Shown piece after piece: positions 12,873-33,967 of a stretch of 49,445 nt of DNA. A program made the position numbers and the translations under genes. The notes beneath the pieces were generated by a model. The model was given only the letters and a program-made list of their open reading frames with translations. It was not told the DNA's origin and made no database searches. Source of the DNA: a virus; the IMG/VR virus record IMGVR_UViG_3300021963_000190, positions 1-49,445 of that record, one strand, 5' to 3'. How positions within the stretch are numbered: position 1 is the first letter of the stretch; each line of letters begins with the position of its first letter.

Positions 12873-13523
12873 TTATTTATCTAAATTTAAATTGTCTGCT
12901 TCCACTCTTTGTAAGATTATAATAGAACCCACATTTTCTCTAATATTTGAAAATGAATAAATTCTATATTCTGGATTCTGTCTTACGAAATCCAATACTG
13001 CATTTTGTAATTCTTTTTGAGTCCAAAAATCATCAATCATAATAAACTTAGCTTGTAATGATTTGGTTAGCATCAGTTCTTCTAATAGCATATCATATGT
13101 GTGAGTACTATCTAACCAAGCTAAATCAACTTTGATTCCTGTATTGTTTAATTGAGTAAGTAATTGAATACTATTAATGTTTTGATAAAACACTTTGTTA
13201 TCATCATAGTATTCGTTAATGAAGTTTACACATCGTATCGATTGATTATCGGAATGCGCATCGCATGTGAATAATTTGAAATCGTTTAATGTTTCATATA
13301 AAACGTAACTGAATGAACCATAATTGGTTCCCGTTTCTAAAATTGTAAATGGTTTTTGCTCAATGAGAAATTCTCTCATAAATGTAGTACCACGTCTAGA
13401 ATTATTTAAGTCGTAATCCGAAATACCATCGATACTTCCGGCGTTACCACCCCAACCCATTCTATTGTTAAGGCTTTCATTTATAAGGAATTCGTAAACT
13501 GGTCCTTGGTAAATATCCTTCAT
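12873..13523 (-). CDS. SAM-dependent class I methyltransferase-like protein
   Basis: A 216-residue Rossmann-type protein of the Methyltransf_24 kind. Motif I is FTILETGTNYGSFS, an acidic strand end follows at LFTCDAHSD, and the later block DLAWLDSTHTYDMLLEEL leads to FIMIDDFW. Members methylate small molecules, sugars or proteins; the substrate here is unknown. It has its own host-type promoter with a short leader of about 20 bases and is followed by the MazG-like and deaminase genes, so it may be the first gene of a nucleotide-related operon. Confidence 0.78.
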   Translation of the reverse strand: MKDIYQGPVYEFLINESLNNRMGWGGNAGSIDGISDYDLNNSRRGTTFMREFLIEQKPFTILETGTNYGSFSYVLYETLNDFKLFTCDAHSDNQSIRCVNFINEYYDDNKVFYQNINSIQLLTQLNNTGIKVDLAWLDSTHTYDMLLEELMLTKSLQAKFIMIDDFWTQKELQNAVLDFVRQNPEYRIYSFSNIRENVGSIIILQRVEADNLNLDK

Positions 13524-16194: not shown

Positions 16195-17460
16195 TTATTT
16201 TATAACCTCTAAATTATCGTAATTTGTTCCCTCATACGATTTGACAGGAAACCCACCCTTCTCTAATATTTGCTTTAAATCTCTTAATACCGAATTTCTT
16301 TCCGATGGATGTACATCAATTAAGAACGCATCGTATGTATATAAAATCATTTTTGAACTTACCCCACTCAAATATAGTAGCACTTCCTCAATCTTCTTAT
16401 AATTCATTTCAGTTTCCAACGCCTGAAGTAAATAGTTAAATACCTTTTGTTCATTCGCCGCTTCGATTCGTTCAAACGGAATTTCCCTCTTATATAGAGG
16501 AGTCGTCAAACGGCCCGAAATTATGAACTTTTGGTAAACGGATTTGATGTACTCATCTACCTTTTGAAAGAATGGAATCCCCTTAGCAAATTCATCCAAA
16601 CCACCATAAAGGTATTTAAATGATAGAGCCTTCGATTCTTCTGTCGTAACCCCATAATATTTTGATAAGTGTTCGTGCGCAGTTTCACCATTTGGGAATT
16701 CGTATCCCACCATTTTACCGATGATACGGATGTGATAGGACTCGTAATCGAATTGAAGTAGAGTACCCCCCTTAAACCTACTCACCACATTGGCTCTACT
16801 ACCATCTGATTTATTCATCGCAGCCCAATTCACATTAAGATGGCGATTGCTCGGTCTACCTGTTACCGTATATGGATTGTATTTGGTGTAAGCAAATCCG
16901 TTTGGTAAATACTCTTTATTGAAATGAAATCTATCAATAAATTTTTCTTCTTCGACTTTCACCCCAGCCCCCTCCAGCCTCCCCAATGTTTTGATGGAAT
17001 CTGAATATAATCTATACCAATGTTTGATTTCTGATATGATGGGGATTCGTCTTAGAACTTCGTACCATCTCATTATGGGTACACAATCATTTAGATATTT
17101 AAAATCGCTTCTGTACCCCTTATAAACCTCCTCAGCGAACTCATTGAGTATGAAGGGTTTACCATACTCTTCAAAATAAACCCACTCATAATCGAGTCCT
17201 TTAGTATCTAAATAACGATTGCCGAAAACCAATGTATCGTTTGAAATAAGTTTATCAAATTTAATCAAATTACACGTTTGTGCATCTATATGGTTAAAGT
17301 TTATAATATAATCGGAATCGTTGGTTCTAAGATACAAAAACGAAATCGATGTATCATATTCGTGTGCTCTGGGTGAACTCCATATAGGAACAGCCAATAC
17401 AACTGAATGATTGTCGTTATAAAACGATAGTAGGGCTTTATTTGTTTCTATTAGATTCAT
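16195..17460 (-). CDS. Divergent family A DNA polymerase
   Basis: A 421-residue protein that fits the polymerase core of DNA polymerase I. NPYTVTGRPSNRHLNVNW (195-212) matches the region before motif A. Motif A is FDYESYHIR (237-245, catalytic D238). Motif B is reduced to ESKALSFKYLYGG (275-287). YLLQALETE (343-351) matches the QGTAAD helix, and motif C is LYTYDAFLIDV (373-383, catalytic D377). Both metal-binding aspartates survive. However, the Glu in motif A is His, and the HDE of motif C is YDA. The N-terminal 120 residues look like a degenerate 3'-5' exonuclease fold without its acidic sites. It could be the replicase or a specialised polymerase. It has its own near-leaderless promoter. 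Confidence 0.82.
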   Translation of the reverse strand: MNLIETNKALLSFYNDNHSVVLAVPIWSSPRAHEYDTSISFLYLRTNDSDYIINFNHIDAQTCNLIKFDKLISNDTLVFGNRYLDTKGLDYEWVYFEEYGKPFILNEFAEEVYKGYRSDFKYLNDCVPIMRWYEVLRRIPIISEIKHWYRLYSDSIKTLGRLEGAGVKVEEEKFIDRFHFNKEYLPNGFAYTKYNPYTVTGRPSNRHLNVNWAAMNKSDGSRANVVSRFKGGTLLQFDYESYHIRIIGKMVGYEFPNGETAHEHLSKYYGVTTEESKALSFKYLYGGLDEFAKGIPFFQKVDEYIKSVYQKFIISGRLTTPLYKREIPFERIEAANEQKVFNYLLQALETEMNYKKIEEVLLYLSGVSSKMILYTYDAFLIDVHPSERNSVLRDLKQILEKGGFPVKSYEGTNYDNLEVIK

Positions 17461-17498: not shown

Positions 17499-18260
17499 CT
17501 ATTCTCCCCAATATTTTTGTCTTAAATCGTAAATATCGATTGGTTCTCTTTTCATATGCTCTCCTTGTCTAAGGAAACCGCCTTTAACCATATATCCACT
17601 TAAAATGGAATATCTCGAATTTTTACCCGTATTAGTATCAGAACCATGTACTAAATGAGAATGAATTAAAAACGCTTGTCCTTTTTTAAGTGTAGCATAT
17701 ATTTTTGGGAAATTATGTCCTTCGGGCATCTTAGATGCTTTACCTCTTTCGTTTCTCCAATTGCCTGGGTTTGTTTTAACTCTCTCCTCATCAACTTCGA
17801 TATCCAATAATGGTAAGTAGTGCGAACCTTCGTATGCCCATAATCCACCATTACTCTCATCGGATGGGTCTAATGATATTGATATGTTTGCAATTTTATT
17901 CCAACCCGCTTGTGAATAGAATCCATCTTGATGTGCATCTCTACCCAATTCGCCAGATGGTTTAAAATATGCCCACGTTTGCACACCCTGTACTTCTGAA
18001 CCAAATAATAATTCCATCATCTCAATGGCTTTTGGATGTGCTAACATCTTATTAACTAATTCCGATTCTTTATGTGGATGCATATATGGTTCGTATTCTC
18101 CCCACTTTGTATCGGATTGATTTCTATTAATTCGTAATCTATCCAATTCAGCAATTATTTCATCTACTTCAGATTCAGTAAGAAAATCCACAATTGCATA
18201 TCCTTTGTATTTCCAATCGTGTAATAAGTTTTCAGCTTCAGTTTGGGTAACGTGCTTCAT
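17499..18260 (-). CDS. Phytanoyl-CoA dioxygenase (PhyH)-like Fe(II)/2-oxoglutarate oxygenase
   Basis: A 253-residue jelly-roll oxygenase. The iron ligands are H110 and D112 in DAHQDGFY and H205 in HLVHGSD, and the 2-oxoglutarate-binding arginine is R216 in KNSRYSIL. The block SLDPSDESNGGLWAYEGSH is typical of PhyH. Family members hydroxylate varied small molecules and lipids; phage versions are known but their substrates are not. It starts one base into the stop region of the next gene upstream (18260-18634). A weaker host-type promoter lies inside that gene, so it can be expressed apart from the baseplate genes. Confidence 0.87.
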   Translation of the reverse strand: MKHVTQTEAENLLHDWKYKGYAIVDFLTESEVDEIIAELDRLRINRNQSDTKWGEYEPYMHPHKESELVNKMLAHPKAIEMMELLFGSEVQGVQTWAYFKPSGELGRDAHQDGFYSQAGWNKIANISISLDPSDESNGGLWAYEGSHYLPLLDIEVDEERVKTNPGNWRNERGKASKMPEGHNFPKIYATLKKGQAFLIHSHLVHGSDTNTGKNSRYSILSGYMVKGGFLRQGEHMKREPIDIYDLRQKYWGE

Positions 18261-26701: not shown

Positions 26702-27484
26702 TTAGAATTTAGTTCCGCAATGTGGGCAGAACTTATGTGTATCTTTCTTTCTTTTGGCACCACACTCACCACAATACAATACACCTAAATCTTCTTTATG
26801 GTATTTCTTTTGTGATGTTGGTAGAATTCTCCATGCTACATTGTGAAATGCATATGAATTAAACTTTCTATCCGATGATGTAAATTCTTGATTAGAGGTA
26901 TCACCCTTTTCAGTTGTACCAGTTTCAACTTTATTTGCATTTCGAATATTTGGACCTGCCAAAGTATTAGATGTTAAACTTGCATTATTGTAATATGCAG
27001 TATTAGTAATACCACTAATTCCCAATGTGTTTGTAGTGTAGGTTATATTATTTGTCCAATTTCCAATACTATTTGTAGTGATTGTACCATATCCACTACC
27101 ATATATTGGTCTATTTGAGAATGAGTGCTCTTCATTAAAGAATTGTATTTCTACATATCCATTATTATCAATAGCACCTACATTAACCGCTTCTTTACCT
27201 ACTTCATAGGTTCTGAATACAAATTTGTTATTTGAATCCAAGAAGCGTTCTAAAAACACTCTTTCACCTGGTCTTAATACAATACCACCACCTGATAAGT
27301 AATCCTTATCGATTTTGATTTTTGCTAATACGTGTTTTGGAGTTGGGTTGAATAATTCGATTTGGTATTCATCTCCATCGTTAAGATAGACTTGTCCTTC
27401 GAATTGTTTGATTCTTTGTTTACCTTTGGTGATAAACGCCTGCGGATTTGATGGACTTCCGCTTGTCCAAATTGATTGTTTCAT
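26702..27484 (-). CDS. Zinc-ribbon protein of unknown function (accessory gene)
   Basis: A 260-residue protein. The N-terminal half is a beta-rich domain (FEGQVYLNDGDEYQIELFNP, then GGGIVLRPGERVFLERFLD). The middle is a Asn/Thr/Gly-rich low-complexity stretch. The end is a zinc ribbon with two CxxC pairs in LYCGECGAKRKKDTHKFCPH and CGTKF. The N-terminal domain recalls proteins scattered in marine virus genomes, but no function is known to me. It stands alone between two terminators, with its own host-type promoter and a hairpin-rich leader, inside the tail gene cluster. That makes it an inserted accessory unit rather than a core tail gene. Confidence 0.68.
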   Translation of the reverse strand: MKQSIWTSGSPSNPQAFITKGKQRIKQFEGQVYLNDGDEYQIELFNPTPKHVLAKIKIDKDYLSGGGIVLRPGERVFLERFLDSNNKFVFRTYEVGKEAVNVGAIDNNGYVEIQFFNEEHSFSNRPIYGSGYGTITTNSIGNWTNNITYTTNTLGISGITNTAYYNNASLTSNTLAGPNIRNANKVETGTTEKGDTSNQEFTSSDRKFNSYAFHNVAWRILPTSQKKYHKEDLGVLYCGECGAKRKKDTHKFCPHCGTKF

Positions 27485-28429: not shown

Positions 28430-28918
28430 TTAGTACTCAAGAATTGCGTAGTCATAAGTTAGAGTTAATTCTATTGATAATGGGTCGTTTGAAGCCCAAT
28501 CCAATTCACCAAAGTTTGCTGAAGAAATGAATGCTCCTTTTAGAGTCCATTGTTCAACTTTATCACCAACTGGTCCTAATAAGTAGAATGTTATATCTTT
28601 CTTATAGAAAGCTGCATATCCATCTCTACCTGTTAAAGATTCATGCGAACTTCTAATCCATTCCATAACTTGCTGTGCACCTGATGGTACAATTGGGTCA
28701 TATAATGAGATTGTGATATCATCCCAAGTTGATTTACCTTTAATTTTTCTTTTTACGTTAATGTGGTCTAGCTCAACTACTTCCGAAGTGAAAGTTGGTC
28801 TACTAGCCGTCTTTATCATATACGATTCTATACCGTTGATTTCCATTATAAATCTATTACCTAACTTTGGTTCAAAGTTGGTATAGAACATTTTATCGAA
28901 CTCTAATACTTCTGGCAT
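28430..28918 (-). CDS. Tail tube protein (T4 gp19 type)
   Basis: A 162-residue tube protein. The family pattern is clear: NRFIMEINGIESYMIKTASR, then PTFTSEVVELDHINVKRKIK and GKSTWDDITISLYDPIVPSG, and the C-terminal strand IELTLTYDYAILEY. Such proteins stack as hexameric rings to form the inner tube through which DNA passes. It follows the sheath gene and ends in a strong terminator. A late motif lies 27 bases upstream. Confidence 0.9.
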   Translation of the reverse strand: MPEVLEFDKMFYTNFEPKLGNRFIMEINGIESYMIKTASRPTFTSEVVELDHINVKRKIKGKSTWDDITISLYDPIVPSGAQQVMEWIRSSHESLTGRDGYAAFYKKDITFYLLGPVGDKVEQWTLKGAFISSANFGELDWASNDPLSIELTLTYDYAILEY

Positions 28919-28966: not shown

Positions 28967-31153
28967 TTATCCGTTAAAAGCGGCGCCAGTTGGTAAGATG
29001 TTGAAATCAATTTGAATGAATTCAGCTGTCTTAGTTGGTTGTAAATAGATAGCCCCTTTCATAATGTTTCTATCAATTACATCTGGTGTGTTATTAGTTT
29101 CATCCATTACAACACGGAATGCGTACAAACCTTGTCTTTGTTGGATTGATTCTAAATACGGATTAACGATATTTAAAAATCTATTTCTAGTCTCCGATGT
29201 GTTTTGTTCGAACACTAAGTAACGAGAAGTAGATGCAATATACTTTCTAACAGTCAATAATAATCTTCTTACGTTAATTCTATCTAATGCAGATGGTTTA
29301 TCTTGTAATGTCTTTTGTCCGAATACTACAATACCTTGTCCTGGAAATTGTACGATTGGATTTACTTTTGCTTCGTATAATGTATCTTTTTCAGATTGAG
29401 TTAATCTATTTAATACACCAACTGCTCCTACTAAACCACCTCTATTTAAACCGGCTGGTGCGAACCATTCTGCTGCTACTCTATCGTTTGCTGCAAATAC
29501 GCCTGGCAATAATACTGATGGCGGAACTGAAATTAATTTGTTTGTATTAACATCAACTGTCTTAACCCAAGGATAGTAAGTTGCTGCCATATTTGAATCA
29601 ATAGCGTCAGATTGAGTTGTAGCTTGTGAGATTGAATCACTAACTGCGTTCGTATCCATAATGTAAAAACAATCGTTTCTTTGCTCAACCATATCCAAAA
29701 CATCGGTTGTTACAGATGGGTGCAATCTTCTAATAACACCTGGAGTTACAATCATATTGATATCAAACTCATCTGCATTAGATAAAGCGGCTACATGCTT
29801 ACCATATGCTACTGAACCATTTGAGGTTGAAGTGGATAAATCAAAACCTTGTGAGTTACCTGCTACAATATCAGAACCTTTATAGATTGGAGTAGTTGGA
29901 GCCATACCATCGAATCCTTCTTGGAATGCTACAACAAATTGTGCAGATGTTGAACCTACTGATAGTGTACCACCATTTGCCGCATCTAATCCAAATACTA
30001 CGTTTGCACCATTTCCTGCGCTTGCCGGAATTGGTTTTAAATATATCTTATTATCTACATTTGAATCCAAATCAATTCCACCATATTGTGTTGCCGATGC
30101 TGTTACAAATGATACAGATGGAACGATTAAATCATAATCACCTACATTTACAGGCAATTGATATGCGGAGTGTCCGAATGGTACAGATTGTATTGGTGCT
30201 ACTTCATTTAAGTTAGCTATTCTAATATATTTTGAATTGTTAATCCAATCACCACTTTCAGTTACTTTGCCTTCAGAATTGATAGTTAATTTTCTATCAC
30301 CGATTACTCTACTAATAAAGTTTGGAGAATTAGGGTCTAAGTTTACATTACTAAATGTTTCTAATACATTCTTCTTCTTATTTGTATCATTGAAATCTCT
30401 TACAACCACAGTAAATGTACCATAATCAGTACCATTTACAGAACCGGCTGCTTTAATATTTGTAATACCAATTTTTACTTTAGTATTTGCCGCATTACCT
30501 GCTCCGATTGTTTCAAATTGGAATAATGGAGTTCTTTCGCCACTAATCAATTGAGATTGAATCATTGGAGTTAATGCTTCTTGTGCATCTAATGTAAAAT
30601 CTTGTGAATCTAATACAACTACACTTTGAGTTACATTAGATGCATTTATTGAAGATGCTATTGATGAATTAGCGAAATATCCATAAACATATCCTTGTGA
30701 AGTTCCTAATGGATTTTGTCCATATGTTCCTACTACATCTTTAAGTTCTACCACACTTTGTGAAATATTTGCATAAGTAGTAGAACCACTTAATCCACTA
30801 GCCGCAGAACCTGTTGAAAATATAAATCCAACAGATGAAGTTACTGAACCTGATGTAGCAATTAACATCAATGGTTTGGTTGCGGTATATCCGCCTATTC
30901 CACCTACTCTACAAATTGTAGCAGTTCCTGCTTCTCTTAAATATGATTGTACTGCTAAAGGAGTATAATATGTGTCATCAACTGAACCAAATAATGTTTC
31001 GAATTCCGCTTGAGAATTAACGATTGTTGGAACTAATGGTCCTTCTTTGAAAGGGCCAATGAATGCTGCACCTATTTCAGATACACCTTGTTGTAAAAAT
31101 GAAAGGTCGTTTTCTTTTGTAAATACGCCTGGTGATACTATTTTCTCTGCCAT
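28967..31153 (-). CDS. Tail sheath protein (T4 gp18 type)
   Basis: A 728-residue contractile sheath protein. The N-terminus (VSPGVFTKENDLSFLQQGVS, then AAFIGPFKEGPLVPTIVNS) is diagnostic for phage sheaths. The C-terminal domain has INVRRLLLTVRKYIASTSRY, then FEQNTSETRNRFLNIVNPYL and ending EFIQIDFNILPTGAAF, which forms the inner core around the tube. The middle is a variable, Ser/Thr-rich insertion region. It makes this a myovirus. Confidence 0.95.
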   Translation of the reverse strand: MAEKIVSPGVFTKENDLSFLQQGVSEIGAAFIGPFKEGPLVPTIVNSQAEFETLFGSVDDTYYTPLAVQSYLREAGTATICRVGGIGGYTATKPLMLIATSGSVTSSVGFIFSTGSAASGLSGSTTYANISQSVVELKDVVGTYGQNPLGTSQGYVYGYFANSSIASSINASNVTQSVVVLDSQDFTLDAQEALTPMIQSQLISGERTPLFQFETIGAGNAANTKVKIGITNIKAAGSVNGTDYGTFTVVVRDFNDTNKKKNVLETFSNVNLDPNSPNFISRVIGDRKLTINSEGKVTESGDWINNSKYIRIANLNEVAPIQSVPFGHSAYQLPVNVGDYDLIVPSVSFVTASATQYGGIDLDSNVDNKIYLKPIPASAGNGANVVFGLDAANGGTLSVGSTSAQFVVAFQEGFDGMAPTTPIYKGSDIVAGNSQGFDLSTSTSNGSVAYGKHVAALSNADEFDINMIVTPGVIRRLHPSVTTDVLDMVEQRNDCFYIMDTNAVSDSISQATTQSDAIDSNMAATYYPWVKTVDVNTNKLISVPPSVLLPGVFAANDRVAAEWFAPAGLNRGGLVGAVGVLNRLTQSEKDTLYEAKVNPIVQFPGQGIVVFGQKTLQDKPSALDRINVRRLLLTVRKYIASTSRYLVFEQNTSETRNRFLNIVNPYLESIQQRQGLYAFRVVMDETNNTPDVIDRNIMKGAIYLQPTKTAEFIQIDFNILPTGAAFNG

Positions 31154-31223: not shown

Positions 31224-32957
31224 TTATTTGTATGTTGGTGAGAAATAATCATATATTTTTGTTATATCTGTTGAACCCAATTGTGTATTGTAGAATAATA
31301 CCGGTCCCATTTGTCCGTTAAAATAGTAATTATTATCACCATATCCTCCACCAATTTGAATCAAAGCGGATGAAGTATAGGTTTTTGCACCATTTGATAT
31401 TGTACCTCTTGATGTAGTATCAGTATATCCAACATTTGTTCCATTCGTAGCCGCTGTGTATGAAATCATATACCAAGTATTCGTACTCAATGTAAATGTA
31501 TTACTACTATATTGTACAGATGTACCATCATGTATAAAGTATGTACCACTACCATTTGAATTTAAATATAAAGCCATTTCTCTTGTACTACCACTATTTT
31601 GTTTACCAAAAATTTGATAATATCCATTAGTCGGATGCGATGCAAATCTAACCCAAGCTACTACCGAATATGCAGATGTGTTAAATTGTGTATATCCACC
31701 ATTAATATTGGATGTACCATCTTTATACCAAAATTTATTAGTAGATAATGACCAATATTTTTCTTTTCTAGTTGCTCCTGCATTATATGTAGGATTTGCT
31801 CCTGTAATACCAACACCATTTGGTGCTCCTGCTGGTCTAACACCCGTTCCCCATCCTGTCAAATCTAACCAATCGGTACCATCAGTACCATTTGTTGATG
31901 ATGCTTTTGATGGGTCTAAGTACATTCTTAAACCTGCCGCCGGGATTGATGGTTGAGTTGTTGTTCCCTTATTATGTGAAATGTATCCGTTTGCTATATA
32001 AACGTCAGCTTGCTCTACGTTAATAGTTGCAATCTCAACATCTTCGGTTACCATTTCTATATTAGTTACTTCAATTTCTTGCGTTTCTCCTAAGAAATCA
32101 TCCCACTTAACAATCATATCACCAATGATGATATCTTCTACATTTTTAAAGTGATACTTTTCAATTTCAGAATCAAATACCCAAAGTGGGTGAGTTCCTG
32201 TAGCTTTGATTTCACCATCGTTTAGTGAATAGTATCCACTAGCGAAATTATAAACAACATCAGCTACAACAACAGTTTGTGCCGAACCCGATTGTGCTTC
32301 TAATTGATAGAATCTCCAATCAACTTGGTCTGATTCTGGGTCTTGGGTTTCATCAGGCAATCCTGCTGGCACCCATGCCTTAATTTCATCACCAACATTT
32401 AAATCTTCTACCGCAACTGATGAACCATCAGCTTTTTCTACCATTGTACCAAATACCAAACAAAAATCCGGTTGGTTGATTGTATTGTAAACATCTACTG
32501 CGTATAATGTTTTTGTAGATGTAGTATTATAGCCGGTTGCTGCCAAATTATATCCATCAGCATATTTCATTGATATTACAGAAGATGCTTCCGAATAGTT
32601 AGATGAAGCAATTGATGCGGGTGTAATTGGAAATGATGGAGATGCTCCTAATGTTGGAGAACCTACTGAAAAGTTTGCGTTATCAAATGTTACCGAATAG
32701 TTTGCAGCTACACTACCAACTTTTGTACCATGTAATGTACCGGCTGTTCCAAATGAGAACGTCGCTGCTTCCGATGTACTTTCTACTATATAAGTATAGG
32801 TTGGTAAGTTTGGAGTTACCGAATCAATTGCGAATGCAGTAAATGAACTATTAGTTGCTCCACCACTCAATCCTCCAATTGAAACTGCCTGAGTCGTTCT
32901 TGCTGAACCACTCACTGCTCTATATAAGTTACCTAACGATAAATTTGTTCTTGCCAT
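31224..32957 (-). CDS. Adhesin-like virion protein with Hint (intein-like) and LamG-like domains
   Basis: A 577-residue protein with three parts. Residues 1-160 are Ser/Thr-rich beta sequence like the fibre proteins around it. Residues 166-329 form a Hint domain: C166 starts CLVFGTMVEKADGSS, block B is TGTHPLWV (T253, H256), and the domain ends ADVYIANGYISHN (H328, N329), followed by KGTTTQ. The Cys, TxxH and terminal HN are the self-processing residues. The residue after HN is Lys, not Cys/Ser/Thr, so cleavage rather than clean splicing is expected. Residues 340-577 form a concanavalin/LamG-3-like lectin domain (SVVAWVRFAS, LIQIGGGYGDNNYYFNGQMG). It probably binds the host surface. Confidence 0.85.
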   Translation of the reverse strand: MARTNLSLGNLYRAVSGSARTTQAVSIGGLSGGATNSSFTAFAIDSVTPNLPTYTYIVESTSEAATFSFGTAGTLHGTKVGSVAANYSVTFDNANFSVGSPTLGASPSFPITPASIASSNYSEASSVISMKYADGYNLAATGYNTTSTKTLYAVDVYNTINQPDFCLVFGTMVEKADGSSVAVEDLNVGDEIKAWVPAGLPDETQDPESDQVDWRFYQLEAQSGSAQTVVVADVVYNFASGYYSLNDGEIKATGTHPLWVFDSEIEKYHFKNVEDIIIGDMIVKWDDFLGETQEIEVTNIEMVTEDVEIATINVEQADVYIANGYISHNKGTTTQPSIPAAGLRMYLDPSKASSTNGTDGTDWLDLTGWGTGVRPAGAPNGVGITGANPTYNAGATRKEKYWSLSTNKFWYKDGTSNINGGYTQFNTSAYSVVAWVRFASHPTNGYYQIFGKQNSGSTREMALYLNSNGSGTYFIHDGTSVQYSSNTFTLSTNTWYMISYTAATNGTNVGYTDTTSRGTISNGAKTYTSSALIQIGGGYGDNNYYFNGQMGPVLFYNTQLGSTDITKIYDYFSPTYK

Positions 32958-32968
32958 TGTATAATGTG

Positions 32969-33967
32969 TTATTCTCCGTTATAAATATCTAAAAGTTTTT
33001 CTTTCCACTCATCTTTATTTGAAAAGTATTTTATCATCCAATTCTTCAGTTTTTCGAATTCAATTTTACGGGTTTCGTAATCATCTTCACAAATCGTTTT
33101 GTAGGTTTGCTTAAATGTTTCCTCGTCAAACGCTTTGTATTTATAATCAAGAGGTACGTGCCATTTTTCGTGTAGTATTGGAAGCTTCCCCCAATCCACT
33201 GCTTCAAATATTCCGTATCCAAATGGTTCAAATTCAAAGCAAGAGTGAGATATTCCCCAATCAAGTCCATAGAACCTTTCTTTATAATTGTAATCAAATT
33301 TGTAAACTTTTGATTTTTCAAATTTGTATCCATATTTCTTTTTATAATATTTGTTGAATGTTTCTGAATTTGTAGAAATGAATCCACCTAATCCATCCAT
33401 ATATTCAACATTCTTTCTACCCTCAGCTCTAGCTGCATATCCCAATATGGTTGAGGTTGAAAGTTCTTTATTTTGTGTAAATTGATAAACGTTTGGTATG
33501 TGATGTAAGTTTTTTGTATTATATGGAAAATGATATAAACCAACCCAAATTTTATTTTTTATTTTATCAATCAATTCGGATTCATATTCCCAATTACCAT
33601 ACCAATGAAGATATTCATTTTTATTTTGCTGTGCCATCAAAGACACTTTGGTTAAATTATGGAAAACAATTGAATCAATCTTTTCCAAATTTTGATGAAT
33701 AGCTCTGGTTGGAGTATAATGACCATGCAATATGTGTATCCTTCTTGCACCTTCTAATATTTTTATGATTTCATCTTCCGATGTTTCCCAAATATGGTCT
33801 ATGTTGATTGGGAATTTTTCGTAGTTTTCGGGCTTATGTCTATGGAATAGAAGAAGTGGCTTAACTTCTAAGTTAGGTGCCACTTCTTTTATCCATTCGG
33901 TTACCCATATATCAGCACCGCTGTTGAACCAAGGTCCTCCAGCGGTGGTGTAATAAACATCGTACAT
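32969..33967 (-). CDS. Glycosyltransferase, GT-B fold (GT4-like)
   Basis: A 332-residue protein that matches retaining GT-B glycosyltransferases. It has GYAARAEGRKNVEYMDGL (176-193) where these enzymes start the donor-binding domain, and FEFEPFGYGIFEAVDWGKLP (244-263), the E-P-FG---EA nucleotide-sugar motif. The N-terminal domain has IHILHGHYTP and HNLTKVSLMAQ, as in acceptor domains. It starts in a TAATG overlap with the stop of an S74 fibre gene, so the two are translated together. It may glycosylate fibre proteins, or alter host surface sugars; modification of phage DNA is less likely given this location. Confidence 0.82.
   Translation of the reverse strand: MYDVYYTTAGGPWFNSGADIWVTEWIKEVAPNLEVKPLLLFHRHKPENYEKFPINIDHIWETSEDEIIKILEGARRIHILHGHYTPTRAIHQNLEKIDSIVFHNLTKVSLMAQQNKNEYLHWYGNWEYESELIDKIKNKIWVGLYHFPYNTKNLHHIPNVYQFTQNKELSTSTILGYAARAEGRKNVEYMDGLGGFISTNSETFNKYYKKKYGYKFEKSKVYKFDYNYKERFYGLDWGISHSCFEFEPFGYGIFEAVDWGKLPILHEKWHVPLDYKYKAFDEETFKQTYKTICEDDYETRKIEFEKLKNWMIKYFSNKDEWKEKLLDIYNGE
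32980..32988 (-). promoter_or_regulatory. Putative late promoter motif before the Hint protein gene
   Basis: An exact ATATTTATA on the minus strand, 22 bases before the ATG at 32957. It lies inside the last codons of the glycosyltransferase gene. Confidence 0.6.

Follow-up and report, generated by a model that had tools for sequence, protein, structure and literature searches.

What does an intein-like domain do inside a phage adhesin when the residue that follows it is a lysine? The gene in question lies in one 49 kb virus record (49,445 nucleotides), the whole stretch of DNA that was analysed and is here called the window. A first-pass annotation had described its product as an adhesin with a Hint domain between a fibre-like N-terminus and a LamG-like lectin domain. 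We confirmed the open reading frame and the coordinates given for it; the gene is on the minus strand (577 aa; Table 1). Our preferred reading, to which we give about an even chance, is that the adhesin is a tail-module protein with a built-in Hint domain, type A BIL-like (BIL, bacterial intein-like) and catalytically competent, which would join the N-terminal domain to the C-terminal module.

Table 1. Adhesin gene and its parts within the window
Feature	Position	Strand	Basis or remark
Whole adhesin gene: N-terminal domain, Hint and LamG, 577 aa	31224..32957	-	ORF, Pfam, syntenic homologues
N-terminal domain, residues 1-165, ends VYNTINQPDF	32463..32957	-	kept in both gene versions
Hint (intein-like) domain, residues 166-329, 164 aa	31971..32462	-	profile search and fold comparison
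C166, presumed N-S acyl shift nucleophile	32460..32462	-	invariant, 130/130
Block B, T253-G-T-H256	32190..32201	-	T and H invariant, 130/130
D318, block F aspartate	32004..32006	-	invariant, 130/130
H328-N329, penultimate His and terminal Asn (block G)	31971..31976	-	invariant, 130/130
K330, +1 residue	31968..31970	-	invariant, 130/130
Linker KGTTTQPSIPAAGLRMY, residues 330-346	31920..31970	-	predicted flexible; recombination breakpoints here
LamG / concanavalin A-like lectin domain, residues 419-565 (Laminin_G_3, PF13385)	31263..31703	-	Pfam

The gene is embedded in a tail region. The tail sheath gene (28967-31153) is the next one downstream, followed by that for the tube protein gp19 (28430-28918), and upstream lie gene 32969-33967 and then two genes for fibre proteins with S74-type ends (S74 chaperone domain). 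The product of 32969-33967 (minus strand; MYDVYYTTxGGPW...) is conserved and always encoded directly upstream of the adhesin, and it has no Pfam or PHROG match. Also adjoining the tail genes is 26702-27484 (minus strand), with a C-terminal zinc ribbon, CGECGAKRKKDTHKFCPHCG, recognised by a weak Pfam match. Within the adhesin, the lectin assignment holds: PF13385 matches with 45.8 bits, above its cut-off of 27.6. The term fibre-like for the N-terminus found no support in any family match, as residues 1-165 have no matching family in Pfam or PHROG.

Identification of the Hint domain depended on its relatives. The single adhesin sequence matched the Pfam families Intein_splicing and Hint_2 only below their curated cut-offs, and a direct PDB search with this one protein gave no match. 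A profile of 15 diverse relatives retrieved Tetrahymena BIL2 (6y75/6tmm) with an E-value of 8e-7 and the C. thermocellum BIL (2lwy) with 3e-5, together with several inteins; 13 of the 15 members matched Intein_splicing, below its cut-off. An AlphaFold2 model built from an alignment of 43 relatives (mean pLDDT 76; a single-sequence model with pLDDT 31 was discarded) gave TM scores, relative to the target, of 0.74 for 6y75 (E 1e-8) and 0.81 for 2lwy (E 6e-8) in Foldseek, and its matches in a viral structure library include Hint-domain proteins of phage NCTB and of uncultured phages. In this model both Hint junctions are predicted to be flexible, with pLDDT below 50 at residues 156-163 and 330-336. 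Residues 166-329 read CLVFGT...ATGTHP...NVEQADVYIANGYISHN, then K330-G331. The N-terminal Cys, the TxxH, the C-terminal His-Asn and the following Lys thus stand where they had been claimed, and profile and fold agree with the assignment. The role of the block F aspartate (Asp F:4) is taken from PMC4031507.

With type A BILs such as that of C. thermocellum the domain shares the Hint fold, Cys1, TxxH and the C-terminal His-Asn, as well as the lack of both an endonuclease and a +1 Cys/Ser/Thr and the location in variable, surface-type proteins. His-Asn and a non-nucleophilic +1 residue, here Lys, were each found in 130/130 relatives, and the adhesin is a variable mosaic protein. It differs from these BILs in being viral, in a tail-module gene that keeps a single constant place next to the tail sheath, and in having the invariant +1 Lys and an extra loop around residues 200-216. 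The closest solved relative by sequence profile is BIL2 of Tetrahymena BUBL1 (6y75, 6tmm), which is eukaryotic and zinc-linked with ubiquitin-like flanks, whereas the adhesin Hint is flanked by the phage N-terminal domain and by LamG or FN3, the only modules found there instead of ubiquitin-like ones, and has Lys as the +1 residue itself. Fold and blocks A, B, F and G are shared with class 1 inteins; unlike these, the adhesin Hint has Lys in place of a +1 Cys/Ser/Thr, no endonuclease and no empty-site allele (0 matches for intein-less alleles), and it is not in an essential enzyme. The presence of His-Asn separates it from type B BILs, which lack block G. Hedgehog (Hog) domains are C-terminal, with a sterol-recognition region and no C-terminal splice site; the adhesin Hint is internal, with His-Asn and a LamG domain after it.

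Searches of viral contigs gave 73 loci with the Hint domain as query and 268 matches with the N-terminal domain, 80 of which were kept. When the upstream gene was used as a Hint-independent anchor, 131 distinct following genes were obtained, and Hint was present in nearly all of the complete ones. The remainder were cut by a contig end, frame-shifted or spurious, or carried an HNKE variant (L307, L315), which does have a Hint domain; no version without Hint was found in this syntenic slot. A search for an empty or non-Cys junction, covering only codons that do not start with T after NTINQPDF, likewise gave 0 matches. The slot gene exists in two versions, one of about 575 aa with N-terminal domain, Hint and LamG, and one of about 435 aa in which the same first two parts precede an FN3-like C-terminus (PF00041, E 4e-4, just under its cut-off). 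Between the two, Hint identity falls to about 36-39%. No Hint relative was confirmed in GTDB genomes, which therefore gave no sign of a reservoir in bacteria or prophages, and a search of cultured phages gave no family member. Among cultured phages, Microcystis phage Mel-JY01 comes closest by tail sheath (48%) and Flavobacterium phage immuto by ribonucleotide reductase (60%).

Elsewhere in the window, all on the minus strand, 988-1791 and 1796-2551 form a tandem pair of Mom-like DNA modification genes (PF25680, E 4e-44 and 2e-42), 17499-18260 encodes a PhyH-type dioxygenase and 12873-13523 a CmcI-like methyltransferase. The 421-aa product of 16195-17460, with weak, sub-cut-off similarity to family A DNA polymerases only (E 3e-4), is possibly a short or divergent polymerase.

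Conservation is concentrated on the presumed active site. A total of 23 positions are the same in all 130 distinct full-length proteins. Fifteen of these fall among the 164 of the Hint domain, including C166, T253, H256, D318, H328 and N329, and K330 is the sole invariant position of the 248 C-terminal to it. With the catalytic residues and K330 identical in all these relatives, the sequence comparison rules out a chance pattern. Median pairwise dN/dS (Nei-Gojobori) was 0.22 for the N-terminal domain, 0.28 for Hint and 0.36 for LamG, and the codons of the catalytic His, Asn, Asp and Thr vary synonymously. As the Hint value lies near those of the flanking domains and the catalytic codons vary in this way, purifying selection acts on the protein. 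Among 43 representatives the K330 codon was AAA in 40 and AAG in 3, and that of C166 was TGT in all. K330 is kept although the LamG and FN3-like modules behind it are unrelated and the flank itself differs by version (KGTTTQPxIP versus KGGNSHTD). Because it is unchanged in 130 relatives despite this exchange, K330 probably takes part in the reaction; an inert or a cleavage-only domain would not need it. Two points tell against a special status: the +2 Gly is nearly invariant too (98%), and an invariant Lys could be structural. An overlapping gene or DNA anchor as the reason for the conserved Lys was rejected, as the only nearby opposite-strand ORF (31678-31956) ends before codon 330 and neighbouring sites vary in their synonymous codons.

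The three domains have largely separate histories. Their pairwise identities are nearly uncorrelated (rho 0.07-0.13, 43 representatives), and several pairs show sharp breaks in DNA identity around codon 169 and around codons 325-337. In the pair L141/L131 the N-terminal domain, Hint and LamG are 96%, 61% and 89% identical; in L007/L015 the values are 99%, 93% and 39%. Independent recombination of the domains, with breakpoints at both Hint edges, is also seen in L050, L099, L084 and L114. Given these breakpoints and the uncorrelated identities, Hint lies, on the alignments, at a seam for the exchange of binding modules, and is itself exchanged too.

Hint domains in phage tails are already known. 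Homologous Hints occur in tail or virion structural proteins of jumbo phages (HMM E-values of 1e-10 to 1e-20), namely Dickeya phage AD1 gp108, Erwinia phages, Yoloswag gp102, phage NCTB BN7874_132/135/136 and LR756508, and some already bear the label intein or Hint protein in public annotation. Most keep Cys1 and His-Asn as the adhesin does. They differ from it in lying at the very end of the protein, with 2-11 residues behind them, in N-terminal parts that are collagen-like or other, and in a +1 residue that can be Thr, Ala or Lys: Thr with an 11-residue tail in the Alexandravirus and Yoloswagvirus jumbo phages; Ala, Ala and Lys in the three Hint proteins of NCTB, whose genes lie close together. 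The Hint of LR756508 ends HNKH, and no relatives of it were found in viral contigs. The C-terminal Hint loci of these jumbo phages are L075 (3104-4543), L077 (3017-4456), L321 (1478-2911), L320 (1960-3480 and 3480-3941), L076 (569-4483) and L079 (3119-4417). In the open literature we found no report of Hint domains in phage tail adhesins, the matches concerning inteins in terminase, polymerase and ribonucleotide reductase, and we could not find a description of a Hint placed internally in an adhesin with an unchanging +1 Lys.

The best reading of the adhesin Hint is an active, A-type-BIL-like domain that processes the protein carrying it, and for this we infer the following chemistry. C166 would attack the F165-C166 bond, leaving a thioester at the C-terminus of the N-terminal domain; N329, aided by H328, would cyclise and cut the N329-K330 bond; and an amine of K330, either the new alpha-amine or the epsilon-amine of the side chain, would take over the thioester. 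This would link the N-terminal domain, through a peptide or isopeptide bond, to the LamG or FN3-like module and expel Hint, with separate cleavage products expected as a side or even the major outcome. That ordinary splicing is not possible, as had been proposed from the missing +1 nucleophile, is correct for the Cys/Ser/Thr transesterification route and too strong as a general statement. Type A BILs form an N-terminal thioester and are cut C-terminally by Asn cyclisation, and in spite of lacking a +1 Cys/Ser/Thr they still ligate somewhat when the freed amino group attacks the thioester (PMC4031507, review); a missing +1 nucleophile therefore does not exclude splicing. The earlier proposal of a self-processing Hint between N-terminal domain and lectin in a tail-module gene otherwise stands as the best explanation, given the intact catalytic residues.

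The invariant +1 Lys fits ligation with K330 as donor of the acceptor amine, and the sequence fits the alpha-amine, giving a normal peptide bond, as well as the epsilon-amine, giving an isopeptide. Tetrahymena BIL2 reportedly splices by forming an isopeptide bond with a lysine (PMC8616854). A K330 side chain that serves as dedicated thioester acceptor, so that anchor and lectin are welded through an isopeptide at a branched junction, seems unlikely to us; for such a bond the invariant Lys is only suggestive. Lys is not needed by the fold or by every phage Hint, as the +1 Thr and Ala of other phage tail Hints indicate.

One alternative, the view taken in the first-pass annotation, has the domain do nothing but cut, at one end or both, and so part the N-terminal domain from the lectin. 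This could be a maturation step or serve to remove a cap or decoy. Phage tail modules often mature by self-cleavage, and the S74 chaperone domain is present in the two neighbouring fibre genes. In the type A BILs tested, moreover, cleavage products dominate over ligation (PMC4031507), which speaks for cutting and against joining. Cleavage would leave the +1 residue largely free to vary, yet K330 is the same throughout, and a receptor-binding domain cut from its anchor would normally lose its use; we consider cutting alone somewhat unlikely. An inert Hint, serving as structural spacer or folding module, appears improbable: structure alone can preserve a domain, but the catalytic residues are exactly among the few invariant positions (15/164).

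In Hedgehog proteins a Hint-type domain carries out transfer to cholesterol, and the thioester of the N-terminal domain might similarly be passed on to a neighbouring subunit or to a different virion protein, with a lysine or hydroxyl there as acceptor. Conjugation of a ubiquitin-like domain to different substrates has been reported for Tetrahymena BIL2 (PMC8616854), and for the jumbo phage Hints, with 2-11 residues after His-Asn, excision would achieve little and transfer of the N-terminal part would be sensible. In the adhesin a full lectin module lies behind an invariant His-Asn and +1 Lys, and pure transfer has no need of the C-terminal Asn, which makes this quite improbable here. A selfish mini-intein or its remnant, kept by homing, could account for whole Hint modules swapped between near-identical flanks, as in L141/L131, but is rejected as extremely improbable, since 164 aa leave no space for an endonuclease, no Hint-less allele was found at the junction or in the slot, and exchange also affects the N-terminal domain and LamG, as in ordinary mosaicism.

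An active site and a following lysine that stay unchanged in all 130 relatives point to a phage that cleaves or joins its own adhesin, with lysine as an unusual acceptor. If this is right, widespread uncultured freshwater and marine phages would process a tail adhesin after translation, at the very point where binding modules are swapped, and the phage tail would offer a defined structure in which to test the purpose of BIL domains. The fixed +1 Lys would represent a natural viral example of protein ligation by an amine, possibly as an isopeptide, and a source of new ligation enzymes that require no +1 Cys/Ser/Thr. Should the side-chain reading be true, lysine-based, intein-like ligation would assemble exchangeable receptor-binding modules on the phage tail.
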